NCBI GenBank assembly: GCA_012727815.1
Contig: JAAYGI010000070.1
Span: 1 to 45,790 of the forward strand
DNA length: 45,790 nt
Direction: 5' to 3'
Origin: Erysipelothrix sp.
GTDB taxonomy: Bacteria; Bacillota_I; Bacilli_A; Erysipelotrichales; Erysipelotrichaceae
Part shown: piece after piece, positions 30,793 through 45,790 of the stretch
How positions within the stretch are numbered: the stretch's first letter is position 1
Layout of the letters: each line of letters begins with the position of its first letter
Made by a program: the position numbers and the translations under genes
The notes under the pieces: generated by a model
What the model saw: only the letters and a program-made list of their open reading frames with translations
Database searches by the model: none
Told to the model about the DNA's origin: nothing

Positions 30793-31022
30793 ATGTCTCC
30801 TCCTAAATAAAAAGTACCACACTTGCCAGGAACGTCAAGCGCGGTACCATCCTGTTTTATTTTGTATAACCAAAATACTCTTTATGTTTATAACGTAACT
30901 ACACGGAAGTGATTAGCTTCTCTCAGAGGTGAATTCATTAAGCTTCATATAGGGTTTGCACCAACCACCCTTATCTCTTGTAATATGAAGTTATTAACTA
31001 CTATGTCTCATCATCGATATAC
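30793..31022 (-). promoter_or_regulatory. Phe-specific T-box riboswitch leader of pheST
   Basis: Between the promoter and the pheS start, the minus strand carries a T-box leader, which reads tRNA-Phe charging and lets transcription continue when uncharged tRNA binds. Seen: a Stem I with base arms CTTCATAT and ATATGAAG, the AG-bulge region AAGAGATAA, the apical GTTGGTGCAAACC motif, and a specifier codon TTC (30931-30933) in GAATTCACC, matching Phe. Then the T-box motif AGGATGGTACCGCG (30840-30853), in which TGGT can pair with the tRNA acceptor end, and the terminator that competes with it. The rest of this gene-free stretch (31023-31164) holds the promoter and otherwise nothing I can assign. 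Confidence 0.95.
30807..30847 (-). terminator. T-box regulatory terminator
   Basis: Twelve-pair stem formed by GTACCGCGCTTG and its partner CAAGTGTGGTAC (with G-U pairs), followed by five T. One arm is the 3' half of the T-box motif, so the terminator and antiterminator exclude each other. Confidence 0.92.
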
Positions 31023-31028
31023 CTATAT

Positions 31029-34290: not shown

Positions 34291-34668
34291 TTACTTGTCA
34301 ATATTATACATTGTATAAGTACCTTTAGTATAAATAGTACCATTTTCATCTCGAGTATACACATCAATTACACATGTTTTATTTGATTTAGAAATCAATC
34401 TTGCATCTACAAATAAGTTTCCATCTTGAAAACCTTTAATATAATTGATGTTACCACTTAAGGTAACCCATTTTCCATCTAATTCACTTACTACAAAGCC
34501 ACATGCAGCATCACTTAAACTATAGTAGACACCGCCATGGACATAGTTATATATATTCTTATGTTTGTTTTGAATGCTGCATACCAGTAATGCAGATTGT
34601 TTATCAAACTTTATATATTCATAATCTAATAAAGAATCAAAACCATCCATTGTTAAACTATTTTTCAT
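34291..34668 (-). CDS. Hotdog-fold thioesterase, PaaI-like
   Basis: Small acyl-CoA-type thioesterase of 125 residues. The motif YVHGGVYYSLSDAACGFVV (about 42-60) matches the PaaI/YdiI group, with the HGG turn and the acidic residue (SDAA) that act in catalysis; the C-terminal strands (YIKGFQDGNLFVDARLIS and CVIDVYT) complete the fold. The start codon shares one base with the UPF0210 stop (TAATG), and no ribosome binding site is seen, so it is probably translated by reinitiation. Substrate is unknown. Confidence 0.85.
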   Translation of the reverse strand: MKNSLTMDGFDSLLDYEYIKFDKQSALLVCSIQNKHKNIYNYVHGGVYYSLSDAACGFVVSELDGKWVTLSGNINYIKGFQDGNLFVDARLISKSNKTCVIDVYTRDENGTIYTKGTYTMYNIDK

Positions 34669-36026
34669 TAGTTTTTAAAGCTGTGGATCGGTGCTGGAAT
34701 ACGTCCACCCCTGTTGATGAAATCATCATTTGAGAAGTTATTTACTGGCATAACTGGTGCATAGCCAAGTAATCCTCCAAACTCAACAATATCGCCAATC
34801 TTCTTACCGTGTACTGGTATAATTCTAACCGCAGTTGTTTTTTGATTGATCATCCCAATCGCTGATTCATCTGCTATAATACCTGATATTGTACTTGCCT
34901 TTGTATCTCCAGGTATTGCAACCATATCAAGTCCAACTGAACAAACACATGTCATAGCCTCTAATTTTTCAAGTGTTAAAGCACCACGTTGTACTGCTTC
35001 AATCATTCCTTTATCCTCACTTACTGGAATAAAAGCTCCACTTAGACCACCAACGTAGGATGAAGCCATAACGCCACCCTTTTTAACATTATCATTTAAT
35101 AAAGCCAGTGCTGCTGTTGTACCAGGTGCACCTGCCTCTTCAAGACCCATTTCTCTGAATATATCAGCAATACTATCTCCAACTGCTGGAGTTGGTGCAA
35201 GTGATAAATCAATAATTCCAAAAGGTACATCAAGTCGTGATGATGCTTCTTGTGCGACAAGTTGTCCTACTCTCGTAATTTTAAAAGCTGTCTTTTTAAT
35301 CATTTCACAAAGGGTTTCAAAGTCTTTTCCTCTAACTGATTTTAAAGCACTACGAATAACACCAGGTCCACTGATTCCAACGTTGATAACAACATCACCC
35401 TCACCTACACCATGGTATGCTCCTGCCATAAAAGGATTGTCTTCAACTGAGTTACAAAAAACTACCAGTTTAGCACATCCAATACTTTCTCTATCTTTTG
35501 TATAGCGTGCACAATCTAATATGATTTGACCCATATCTTTAATAACGTCCATGTTCATACCATTTTTAGTAGAACCAACATTAACACTTGCGCATACTTT
35601 ATCAGTAACACTTAGTGCTTCTGCTAAAGAGTTCATTAATATTACATCTGCTGGTGTTGCACCTTTTTGAACAAGTGCACTAAAACCACCTATAAAATCA
35701 ACACCTACATCTTTTGCTGCACGATCCAGTGTTTGAGCGATTGATACATAGGAGTCTGTTTTACAAGCTGCCGCTGCAATCGCAATGGGTGTCACAGATA
35801 TTCTTTTATTAACAATTGGTATCCCTAATTCTTTTTCAAGCTCAGACCCAACTTTAACAAGGTTTTTAGCCTTAGATACTATTTTATTATATATATTCTC
35901 ATTAAATACATCTACATCTGGATGGGCACAATCAAGTAAACTAATTCCCATTGTAATGGTTCTAACATCCAGTTGTTGTTCTTGAATCATTCTATTGGTT
36001 TCTAATATTTCTAGTTTGTTTATCAT
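34668..36026 (-). CDS. UPF0210 (DUF711/PFL-like) protein
   Basis: 452-residue member of a conserved family of unknown function with a fold like the pyruvate formate-lyase/anaerobic ribonucleotide reductase barrel but without the glycyl-radical motif. Visible family blocks: [82 protein letters not shown], and a Cys-containing [17 protein letters not shown]. The gene follows the ACT-domain protein by 8 nt, a pairing widely seen in bacteria. AAGGAG precedes the ATG. No reaction can be assigned. Confidence 0.92.
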
Positions 36027-36034
36027 AAAGCTCC

Positions 36035-36304
36035 TTATATACGGTGCATGCTTTTAAAGATGCTTTCCTGTTGTATTTGAATCTTAACATTCAATGTTTT
36101 TTCAAGTGAAGTCAATGCTTCATTTAAAGTTTCAAAATCTAAGTCTGAATCTTCTATGTCTACTATCATAATCATATTAAAAAATTCATCAAGGATCGTT
36201 TGATTTATATCTAAAACATTAACTTTATGTTTTGCTAGTAAATTACATACCCCTGCTATAATACCAACTTGATCTAATCCTACTACTGTAATAATCGTTT
36301 TCAT
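36035..36304 (-). CDS. ACT-domain protein (UPF0237)
   Basis: 89 residues, essentially one ACT domain, the small-molecule (often amino acid) sensing fold: [20 protein letters not shown] with the glycine turn between the first strand and helix, then NVLDINQTI and [10 protein letters not shown] chose ATG 36304 because GGAGGTAA precedes it and the domain starts right there; an upstream extension has no ribosome binding site. It is placed to sense a ligand for the adjacent UPF0210 protein; that link is genomic context only. Confidence 0.9.
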
Positions 36305-36360
36305 ATCATTACCTCCATTTAAGTAACACTTTATCACACTTAAGTATGATTACCAAGAAG

Positions 36361-36393
36361 AAAAAAGATGTTTCATATTATTTGAAACATCTT
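36361..36393 (-). terminator. Terminator after gdpD
   Basis: Perfect 11-bp stem (36365-36375 and 36383-36393, 7-nt loop), followed on the minus strand by TTTTTTC. It ends the hflX-dagK-gdpD unit; the gdpD stop codon falls at its edge. Confidence 0.88.
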
Positions 36394-37087
36394 AGATACT
36401 TTCTTTTATTATTAAACTAACATCTTGTGAAAAGTGATGCGCTTCATCAGGTTTTAGTGTCCATACTGCTATATGACCAGCTATATGAGAATAGATAAAA
36501 CGGGTGAATTTATTGCGACCCATTTTCTTTTCATAACTATAAAATGTTGGTTTTGTAAATAGATGAAGTATGAATGTATGCATGAATATTCCAACAACCA
36601 TATAGCCTTACCTATTTATAGGCATTAGCAGTTGTCCTCTTAAAGTATTGGGTGTAAATCTTTTAAACCATGTTAGGACAAAAGGATTAAAGGATTGAAT
36701 CGCATACTCACCTTTATAATCACTCAATAATTCATATATATACATACATGCTTCTTTATTATTGGTCATATACTTAACTTCTATCAATAAAGGGACACGT
36801 CCCCTTACAAGTGATAAGAGTTCACTAAACATTGGTATTACATCTCCATTTTCAAATGGATACTGTTTTAGTTCTTCATAGGTTAAGGATGCTATATTTA
36901 GTTTCGAACCATTCAATCTTTTTAGATCCGCATCATGTGCTACTACAATTATCTTGTCTTTAGTAATCCGTAGGTCTAACTCGATTGCCATATTTCTGTT
37001 AATTGCATTTTCAAAAGCACTGAGTGTATTTTCAAATACTGTCTTATTATCATAAATTCCTCTATGTGCATATTTGGATGCTAACAT
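36392..37087 (-). pseudogene. Glycerophosphodiester phosphodiesterase gene interrupted by an in-frame TAA
   Basis: Read as one frame this would be a GDPD protein of about 231 residues, the enzyme that releases glycerol 3-phosphate from glycerophosphodiesters. Codons 1-159 carry all the usual catalytic motifs: AHRGIYDN and FENT, AIELDLRITKD, VVAHDADLKRLNG and LLIEVKYM, then AIQSFNPFVLTWF. Codon 160 is TAA (36608-36610). The same frame continues after it with the C-terminal barrel: LFTKPTFYSYE, then HIAVWTLKPDE near the end, which is what intact GDPDs have. No frameshift is involved. Two codons after the TAA comes an ATG (36599-36601), preceded by GGTAAGG, so two polypeptides of 159 and 69 residues could be made. 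The ATG at 37087 is favoured by AAGGTG upstream; the junction with dagK is TAGTATG. Confidence 0.82.
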
Positions 37088-37088
37088 A

Positions 37089-37970
37089 CTATACAAGCAC
37101 CTTAAGTTTTTTCTTTAATACTTTAATTTCATTAATCTCTGCTCTGACACCTTTTTCACCATCTATATTCCAAGTATAAGTTTTTCCTTGTGATATAAAT
37201 TTGATATGGTCAGTTTTACCAACAATAAAATTCTCACCTGAATACTCATTACCTAACATGTGTTGAACAAGTTGGATGAAATCTCTAACTTTTTTAGGTT
37301 TCTTAACCAGTAGAACTTCAAAGAGTCCATCTTCAATATCAAGTTCATCTTCTTTATATTTAAATACGCGTCCAAATTGAGATGCATTGGATATTAAACC
37401 AAATAAAAATGTTTCATTGTATGTCTGATTGTTAAAGTTTACTTCGTAGTTATAATTCTTAACAGTATGTAATTTAACTGCACCATAAATCCAATATGCG
37501 AAGTGTCCTAGAATGTTTTTCCATTTCTGGGGTGTATCGTAGGATGCTGATGTGAAGTTTCCAAATGCCGCTACATAAGTAAAATGTACATCATTTAAGA
37601 TACCAACATCAACATGTCTTACTTGGCCTTCTGTAATCAGAGCAAGGCTTGCTTTGATACTTTCAAAATTAACCCCTAGTGTTTGTGCATATTCATTGGT
37701 TGAACCTGTAGGTATGATTACAAGACGTGCTTGTAATTCTCTTTTAAGAATGGCATCAACTGTTTTACTAACAGTACCATCCCCACCAATTGCAACAATA
37801 ACATCATACACTACTTCAGTTTCCATTAAATAATCATAGCCACCATAACCTGGTTCTACTTCGAAAAAATCACAATCTGCATCACTTTGTGCTATGTAAT
37901 CTAAGTATTTACTTTTATGATCTTCGAGTTTTTGACCCGAACTTGGATTGTAAATAAATAATACTCTCAT
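37089..37970 (-). CDS. dagK: Diacylglycerol/lipid kinase family protein
   Basis: Lipid kinase of 293 residues, likely returning diacylglycerol to phosphatidate for the CdsA route. The nucleotide-binding motifs are IYNPSSGQ (about 6-13), VAIGGDGTVSKTVDAIL (GGDGT near 59-63) and IPTGSTNEYAQTLG. ISNASQFGRVFKYKEDELDIEDG lies in the C-terminal half, as in DagK/YegS. GGGAGG precedes the ATG, which falls 1 nt after the hflX stop (TAGTATG). Other lipid kinases of this superfamily (sphingosine-like) cannot be ruled out. Confidence 0.9.
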   Translation of the reverse strand: MRVLFIYNPSSGQKLEDHKSKYLDYIAQSDADCDFFEVEPGYGGYDYLMETEVVYDVIVAIGGDGTVSKTVDAILKRELQARLVIIPTGSTNEYAQTLGVNFESIKASLALITEGQVRHVDVGILNDVHFTYVAAFGNFTSASYDTPQKWKNILGHFAYWIYGAVKLHTVKNYNYEVNFNNQTYNETFLFGLISNASQFGRVFKYKEDELDIEDGLFEVLLVKKPKKVRDFIQLVQHMLGNEYSGENFIVGKTDHIKFISQGKTYTWNIDGEKGVRAEINEIKVLKKKLKVLV

Positions 37971-37971
37971 A

Positions 37972-39222
37972 CTACCTCCCATTTACTAAGTACGCACTAT
38001 ACATCTTTTTCAAGTGTACCTTAGCATTAACCTTAATATAAACACCATCATCAAGATGTTCTGACTCTACTATATTATAATTGCTTAGAACTTGTTCTAC
38101 GAGATTCATTTTTGAATAAGGGAATAAAAACTCCATCTCTTCTTCATCTTGCCATAGTATTTCTTCGATTCGTTTGATTAAAGCTTCAATTCCTAAGTTT
38201 TCTTTTATTGAAATATAGGCAGTATCCGTGTTTACCAAGGGTTCTACATTATCAAGTAAATCAATTTTATTAAATACGGTTAGAATAGGTGTCTCTGCTA
38301 TTTCAAGTGTTTCTAAAGTATCATTAATCGTTTCAATATGGGATTCATAATTTGGATTAGATAAATCTACCAGGTGAATTAGCATATTAGATGTTTCAAT
38401 CTCTTCAAGTGTAGCATGAAATGCTGGTACTAGATCATGAGGTAAATCGTTAATAAATCCAACGGTATCATTTAATATAAATGATCTATTGTTTTCTAAA
38501 GTGATCTTGCGACTGTATGTTTCTAAACTGGCAAAAAGCATATCTTTAACGAATACATGTTTATCTAGTTCTTGCGCAAGTAACATGTTCATGAATGAAG
38601 ATTTACCAGCATTGGTATAACCTACAAGTGATACCAGTGGCAGCGCACCAGATGTCTTTTGAGCACGTGTAATCTCACGTGTCTTTTCATTTTCTTTTAA
38701 TACTTTTTCTAAATATCTAATTCTTTGACCTACATTACGTCTGTCTAGTTCAAGTTTCGTTTCACCCAGCCCTTTATTCTTTGTACCAGATGCTCCTCCC
38801 TGTCTTCCAAGGTGAGCATATGATCCAATCATACGAGGAAATACATATTTAAGTTGCGCAATTTCTACTTGTGCTTTTGATATTGGTGTGACTGCACGTC
38901 GTGAAAATATTTCAAGAACTAACATATTCTTATCAACAATCTCAACACCAATCTCTTCTTCTAAGTTTCTAATTTGGGAGGGAGTTAAACCAATGTTAAA
39001 AATCACAAGATCTGCTTCTTGTGCTTCTGCTGCATTTTTTAATTCTTCAACCTTCCCTTTACCTATATAAAATGCGTTGCTTTTTTTCTTGATGTTTTGT
39101 GTAACAACATCAACAGTTTCCATTTCACATGCCAAGGCTAGGTTTTTTAATTCTTCTATATTTTCATTCAATTGAAAATCACTTAAATCTTCAATTGCCA
39201 TCATTATTAATGCTTTATCCAT
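37972..39222 (-). CDS. hflX: Ribosome-associated GTPase HflX
   Basis: GTPase that binds the 50S subunit and rescues or splits stalled ribosomes under stress. 416 residues. N-terminal nucleotide-like domain (about 1-120, including LVIFNIGLTPSQIRNLEEEI), a helical linker with GRQGGASGTKNKGLGETKLE, then G1 VGYTNAGKSSFMNML, G2/switch region ASLETYSRKITL, G3 DTVGFINDLPH and G4 VFNKIDLL. AAGGAG is upstream of the ATG, but an intrinsic terminator ends about 20 nt above the start, so this gene depends on read-through or on a promoter I cannot see. Confidence 0.96.
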   Translation of the reverse strand: MDKALIMMAIEDLSDFQLNENIEELKNLALACEMETVDVVTQNIKKKSNAFYIGKGKVEELKNAAEAQEADLVIFNIGLTPSQIRNLEEEIGVEIVDKNMLVLEIFSRRAVTPISKAQVEIAQLKYVFPRMIGSYAHLGRQGGASGTKNKGLGETKLELDRRNVGQRIRYLEKVLKENEKTREITRAQKTSGALPLVSLVGYTNAGKSSFMNMLLAQELDKHVFVKDMLFASLETYSRKITLENNRSFILNDTVGFINDLPHDLVPAFHATLEEIETSNMLIHLVDLSNPNYESHIETINDTLETLEIAETPILTVFNKIDLLDNVEPLVNTDTAYISIKENLGIEALIKRIEEILWQDEEEMEFLFPYSKMNLVEQVLSNYNIVESEHLDDGVYIKVNAKVHLKKMYSAYLVNGR

Positions 39223-45409: not shown

Positions 45410-45415
45410 ATAAAT

Positions 45416-45515
45416 GCCTACCTTTCCGTTTTTCCGCCACTGCTTCTAATAACAACAACTCAGTATTGAGCACGGGTTGTTAAATTCACAGTGTGAGAAT
45501 GGGCTTTTTTGCCAC
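45416..45515 (-). promoter_or_regulatory. Structured 5' leader of rpsB (putative autoregulatory RNA)
   Basis: The leader from the promoter to the ribosome binding site is about 105 nt. On the minus strand it contains a compact hairpin: AACAAC (pairing with GTTGTT) enclosing CTCA-ATAC-TGAG, about 45447-45483, and a second element TTCTCACAC/TGTGAA nearby. Ribosomal protein mRNAs often carry leaders bound by their product; S2 regulation is known in other bacteria, but I do not match this to a named Rfam family. Confidence 0.45.
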
Positions 45516-45520
45516 TTCTA

Positions 45521-45549
45521 ATATTATCATGAATCATAAGAAAGTTCAA
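45521..45549 (-). promoter_or_regulatory. rpsB-tsf promoter
   Basis: -35 TTGAAC (45544-45549), 17-bp spacer, extended -10 TGATAATAT with hexamer TAATAT at 45521-45526. The -35 lies at the edge of a long palindrome (45546-45597). Confidence 0.72.
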
Positions 45550-45597
45550 GTGTTTATGCTTTTCATAAATTTTATGAAATTATAGATAAACACTTGA
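45546..45597. repeat. Nested inverted repeat over the rpsB promoter
   Basis: Outer arms TCAAGTGTTTAT (45546-45557) and ATAAACACTTGA (45586-45597), 12 bp, perfect; inside them a second palindrome TTTCATAAA-T-TTTATGAAA (45561-45579), perfect 9-1-9. The structure can form one long hairpin downstream of the UvrA-like gene, but no T-run follows on either strand, and its inner edge overlaps the rpsB -35. Confidence 0.75.
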
Positions 45598-45615
45598 TAA
45601 ATTCATATATAAAAT

Positions 45616-45790
45616 TTAATCATATTTATTAAACACATATTGTGCTGTTAAAGAGTTTTCTTTTCCTTTTAACTTACTTGGAATACCTGTATAGATAACT
45701 TCCCCACCCAAACGACCTGCACCTGGCCCCATATCTATAATATAGTCTGCTTGACGCATGACTTCGACATTATGTTCTACAAGAATTACA
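45616..45790 (-). CDS. UvrA-family ABC ATPase, C-terminal end only
   Basis: The minus strand holds an open frame from the window edge to TAA at 45616-45618, with about 57 residues visible: VEHNVEVMRQADYIIDMGPG, then GRLGGEVIYTGIP, then ENSLTAQYVFNKYD. The EHN switch region, IDMGPGAG and GGE blocks are the C-terminal ABC head of UvrA proteins. Because only the tail is visible I cannot tell true UvrA from UvrA-like ATPases. The gene begins outside the window. It sits directly upstream of the rpsB promoter. Confidence 0.85.
   Translation of the reverse strand, partial: VILVEHNVEVMRQADYIIDMGPGAGRLGGEVIYTGIPSKLKGKENSLTAQYVFNKYD

Follow-up and report, generated by a model that had tools for sequence, protein, structure and literature searches.

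An accessory GDPD gene in the hflX-dagK operon of Erysipelothrix sp., probably interrupted by a point nonsense mutation

Results

Organisation of the GDPD locus

The DNA analysed here, referred to as the window, is one entire contig of 45,790 nucleotides with a G+C content of 33.5%. It belongs to an assembly of an Erysipelothrix sp. (G000) which comprises 1.45 Mb in 123 contigs and is 84% complete. On its minus strand a GDPD (glycerophosphodiester phosphodiesterase) frame starts with the ATG at 37087 and runs in a single frame to its natural end, the TAA at 36394-36392. As the preliminary description had it, this frame is split by one additional in-frame TAA (36608..36610) into an N-terminal part of 159 sense codons (36611..37087) and a C-terminal part of 71 codons (36395..36607). 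The premature TAA is accompanied by no indel, lies in no long homopolymer and has intact codons on either side. A frameshift instead of a point change was considered and ruled out, since both the frame and its alignment with the seven nearest relatives are free of gaps, which also confirms that no base has been gained or lost. The ATG that had been pointed out two codons past the TAA is present as well (36599..36601), 6 nt beyond the stop and preceded by GGTAAGG.

Directly upstream, on the same strand and recognised by Pfam, lie the genes for the GTPase HflX (hflX, 37972..39222) and for a lipid kinase (dagK, 37089..37982), the latter ending 1 nt before the GDPD ATG. Downstream follow genes for an ACT-domain protein (36035..36337) and a DUF711 protein (34668..36026), both on the minus strand, identified by Pfam and syntenic in another genome of the genus, G011. 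Between the GDPD frame and the ACT-domain gene an intrinsic terminator with an 11-pair stem (36365..36393, minus strand) starts one base into the final stop codon; its z-score is -3.76 and only 1 of 200 shuffled sequences was as good. The proposed place of the gene in the hflX-dagK operon, with a terminator of its own, is thereby corroborated. With the terminator placed where the frame naturally ends, the transcription unit appears designed for the whole frame.

DUF711 served as the marker for finding relatives among named genomes. A DUF711 protein 65% identical to that of the window was also met on a contig labelled Methanosarcinaceae archaeon (L103), where misbinning or transfer is possible. 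Elsewhere in the window, a T-box leader (30825-31023, minus strand; Rfam RF00230, 101.6 bits) precedes a phenylalanyl-tRNA synthetase-like gene pair; such a leader is usual for operons of this kind.

Both parts of the frame belong to one GDPD gene

The N-terminal part matches Pfam PF03009 (E-value 7e-18) with 66.0 bits, compared to a gathering cut-off of 23.6. The motifs HR, E-x-D, H and E-x-K are all present. The preliminary description had placed every catalytic motif in the N-terminal half; this holds for the catalytic and metal-binding residues H8, R9, E36, D38, H51, E103 and K105, but the conserved W209 is located behind the stop. We assume that the N-terminal part corresponds approximately to barrel strands 1 to 6 and the C-terminal part to strands 7 and 8. 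GDPD enzymes are eight-stranded barrels (PMC10404611). A complete barrel of this type is not encoded in one open frame in the window, where the frame ends at residue 159 and the last part is found in the other 71 codons.

Taken alone, the C-terminal part has no match in Pfam or NCBIfam; the Pfam match to the intact relative L003 likewise stops at residue 163 of 250. With tblastn (E<=1e-4) its sole match among the loci compared is the syntenic copy of G011, with 34% identity over 59 aa and an E-value of about 1e-11, a hit returned by both of two overlapping loci. Within the whole frame, the C-terminal part aligns with the relatives through to the end and carries P180, F182, W209 and E229, which are invariant in the aligned group of eight. 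Three GDPD sequences of known structure (4oec, 7e0v and 7e2a) are matched by the profile of this group, and the matches extend into the C-terminal part. When the single sequence of the window was used, 15 PDB sequences were found whose matches reach no further than residue 155, which presumably lies near strand 6 of the fold. The claim that the C-terminal barrel continues past the stop is thus backed by the whole-frame alignment and the profile, though not by family models for this part alone. Judged by these alignments, the sequence behind the stop is part of the same GDPD gene. A structure model from the single sequence, made with no alignment, had a mean pLDDT of 47 and was too poor for use.

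The copies of the window and of G011 begin at the HRG region, directly behind the upstream gene. Both lack the N-terminal hydrophobic stretch that visual inspection shows in most of the group's other copies (37060-37096 in the window).

The stop codon is not shared by relatives

The preliminary description had proposed to compare codon 160 with that of orthologues, and had named orthologues split at the same place among the observations that would contradict it. Among the fetched loci that passed E<=1e-15, 33 relatives were aligned, and in every one of them the stop column is occupied by a sense codon. In seven of them (L002, L003, L004, L005, L009, L034 and L037) this codon encodes Tyr in an alignment ungapped relative to the window. 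These seven nearest relatives are all four same-genus copies (G005, G006, G011 and G012) and the copies of G020, G173 and G200 from other genera; the remaining 26 show a different gap pattern just before the stop column, which makes the column less certain for them. At the family level, 97 of 272 genomes, G000 included, contain a match at E<=1e-15, and of the 101 matches, 12 of which end before residue 160, only that of G000 has an internal stop. None of the relatives examined, whether aligned or found at the family level, is split at this place, and the syntenic orthologue of G011 is open at the stop position.

A premature stop that is absent from orthologues, as in a nonsense pseudogene, was accordingly found, and a stop conserved among orthologues, as in programmed read-through, was not found among the 33 aligned relatives and the 101 family matches. 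The preliminary description had listed nonsense mutation, programmed read-through, reinitiation and base-call error and preferred none of them. Sense codons at position 160 and unsplit genes in the relatives examined favour an error or a nonsense mutation specific to this lineage, and count against a conserved programmed stop. The stop itself is seen in one assembled consensus only, 84% complete and in 123 contigs. A search for another copy of the same species gave no match in viral contigs (the stop codon being left open) or in plasmids, two sets in which the genome's own records are possibly not included.

The GDPD gene is accessory in the genus

A tree was calculated from 33 sequences, with L010 dropped and the two pieces of the G011 gene joined in one row. 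In this tree the window and G011 are united with an ultrafast bootstrap of 99. The gene order in G011 is hflX-dagK-MFS-GDPD on one contig, and the remainder of GDPD followed by the ACT-domain and DUF711 genes on another. By tree and gene order, the G011 gene is a clear orthologue of the GDPD gene in the window. The G011 assembly breaks inside the GDPD gene, whose parts lie at two contig ends (L056:1 and L055:10370).

Eight of the 12 other genomes of the genus contain no GDPD match at E<=1e-15, and on this distribution the gene is accessory in the genus. A different short GDPD occurs in two of these eight (G004 and G008), and a long GDPD of 589-605 aa is present in ten of the 12. G001, which is closest by DUF711 among the genomes compared (85%), has neither a GDPD nor a dagK match and is 88% complete. 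An MFS transporter gene is found in three of the 13 genus genomes (G006, G011 and G012), ahead of GDPD in all three, and, judged by the first residues alone, apparently also ahead of GDPD in G020. No match to the MFS gene was obtained in G005, a genome with GDPD, so the pairing is not universal. In the 84% complete assembly G000 the MFS gene was not found; in particular, it does not lie between dagK and GDPD (37085-37095). Nor was a second GDPD copy able to replace the gene detected in this incomplete genome at E<=0.001.

Constraint before and behind the stop

On one topology, separate branch lengths were fitted to the N-terminal and the C-terminal part. The terminal branch of the window measures 0.646 before and 1.021 after the stop, a C/N ratio of 1.58, compared to 1.62 for the whole tree; the window ranks 14th of 33. 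By branch lengths there is no particular speed-up behind the stop relative to the tree average. Relative-rate counts for the window and G011 show no significant difference (N-terminal part 17:14, p 0.72; C-terminal part 8:4, p 0.39), and with six single outgroups p ranges from 0.08 to 1.0.

Two other measures hint at some relaxation behind the stop. The C/N identity ratio of the window (0.401), a cruder measure than branch lengths, is the lowest of the 33 sequences, the next being 0.461. Of the group-conserved residues the window keeps 37 of 52 in the N-terminal and 6 of 10 in the C-terminal part, the smallest share in both halves; the other seven sequences keep 83-95% and 78-100%, respectively, in an uneven comparison, since the window branches outside the other six. 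Only 25 of the 639 possible single changes in the C-terminal part would create a stop, so that finding no second one there argues only weakly for a young age. With a C/N branch ratio close to the tree average the codons past the stop are still coding-like, which suggests that the stop is probably recent and that the gene is perhaps under slightly relaxed constraint.

Alternative explanations

The TAA might be a consensus error, or the assembler may have taken this base from a minor strain, with the gene of the species intact. Such an origin would agree with the finding of one affected codon in one fragmented assembly, with the intact codons flanking it on both sides and with a constraint behind the stop which, by branch lengths, is at the tree average. 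Against it stand the absence of an indel and the position outside long homopolymers, and a simple gap check that revealed no other broken gene in the window. This check considered gaps >120 bp between the 42 listed genes and met five. Three of them are accounted for, by a histidine kinase frame that extends beyond the window, by the T-box leader and by the C-terminal part of GDPD; the other two measure 132 and 135 bp. The result applies to the three gaps accounted for and to the window ahead of 45410-45790, and a split called as two genes would escape it. All in all, we consider an error unlikely.

Even lower is the probability we assign to the synthesis of two proteins, in which translation would end at the TAA and begin anew at the ATG 6 nt further on, the fragments assembling into a split barrel. 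In its favour, the ATG follows the stop closely. In E. coli, short distances permit coupling, with an efficiency that drops fast with distance: in three gene pairs (PMC10666635), restart fell by 5, 20 and 70% at a distance of 2 nt and by 40 to 80% at 14 nt. On these E. coli data some restart at 36601 is possible. The preliminary description had further argued that the GGTAAGG before the ATG would favour two fragments, and this we could not support. The Shine-Dalgarno energy at this site is a weak -4.5 kcal/mol, a value that 39 of the 42 gene starts match or better, as do 58 of the 298 in-frame ATGs inside the window genes; the median for genes is -9.95, although the gene values are biased in their favour, the best start within the first 40 codons having been taken. 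The restart site is therefore possible but weak, and none of the relatives examined is split.

Least probable of the three is a stop that is read through to yield low amounts of full-length enzyme. The C-terminal half is still coding-like, and PMC7918605 reports from many bacteria in-frame stops within genes whose dN/dS is below 1. On the other side, the stop is not common to relatives and the RNA around it is not unusually structured (z -0.52). TAA is moreover the commonest stop in the window, where it ends 25 of the 41 other genes, the stop in question left out. No UAA-reading tRNA was present at the 21 tRNA places of G000, an incomplete genome in whose list Tyr, Lys and Met tRNAs are absent too.

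The related proposal of a naturally split barrel formed by stop and restart, or of a rare read-through form, with both halves selected and the stop setting the enzyme dose, likewise has a very slim chance of being correct.

A deviant genetic code with reassigned UAA finds no support, given the same use of TAA in the window and the same 21 tRNA places; the absence of in-frame TGA in the listed genes arises by construction and proves nothing.

Discussion

We consider it probable that a point change has introduced a nonsense codon, either fixed or still segregating, into this accessory GDPD gene. A change of one base would have turned a sense codon, Tyr in the nearest relatives, into TAA in an otherwise intact gene; we infer a single substitution, and a stop that has reached fixation and no longer segregates. 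The operon gene would then be translated for 159 residues only, which leaves its eight-stranded barrel open by about two strands. With the barrel cut in this way, the 159-residue product, devoid of the last two strands and of W209, would presumably fail to fold and is probably inactive. Since the gene is accessory, and the MFS transporter gene ahead of it in three of the four same-genus genomes with GDPD was not found in G000, loss of the GDPD would be tolerated. Ordinary recent gene loss is the most likely account of the case and an assembly error a less likely one; both are preferred to a novel mode of translation.

As such, it would be a clean but ordinary example of apparent gene loss, in which an accessory operon enzyme is struck by one stop codon. 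It mainly calls for caution in annotation, where an automated procedure would turn the locus into two short genes or into a pseudogene. Only if both halves were indeed made and used would the locus be of wider interest, as a natural split barrel enzyme.

Among known systems, the window gene belongs with the GDPD / GlpQ family (PF03009), of which Staphylococcus LpgD is a characterised member (PMC10404611); the N-terminal part of the window gene has HR, E-x-D, H and E-x-K in common with the family, and the C-terminal part the late Trp. The LpgD model is the best NCBIfam model for the N-terminal part, but with 37.4 of 450 bits the match remains far under the cut-off. The window copy further differs from the family in being cut by a stop and in lacking the hydrophobic N-terminal stretch of most of the group. 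As to the stop itself, the closest comparison is with the in-frame stop polymorphisms and nonsense pseudogenes of bacteria (PMC7918605). From those stops the window case differs in being known from one genome. It resembles them in having one stop, a gene that is still coding-like and a sense codon in relatives. In that study, in-frame stops are found to last mostly for about as long as polymorphisms within populations do, and the GDPD gene of the window fits this picture of short-lived in-frame stops.
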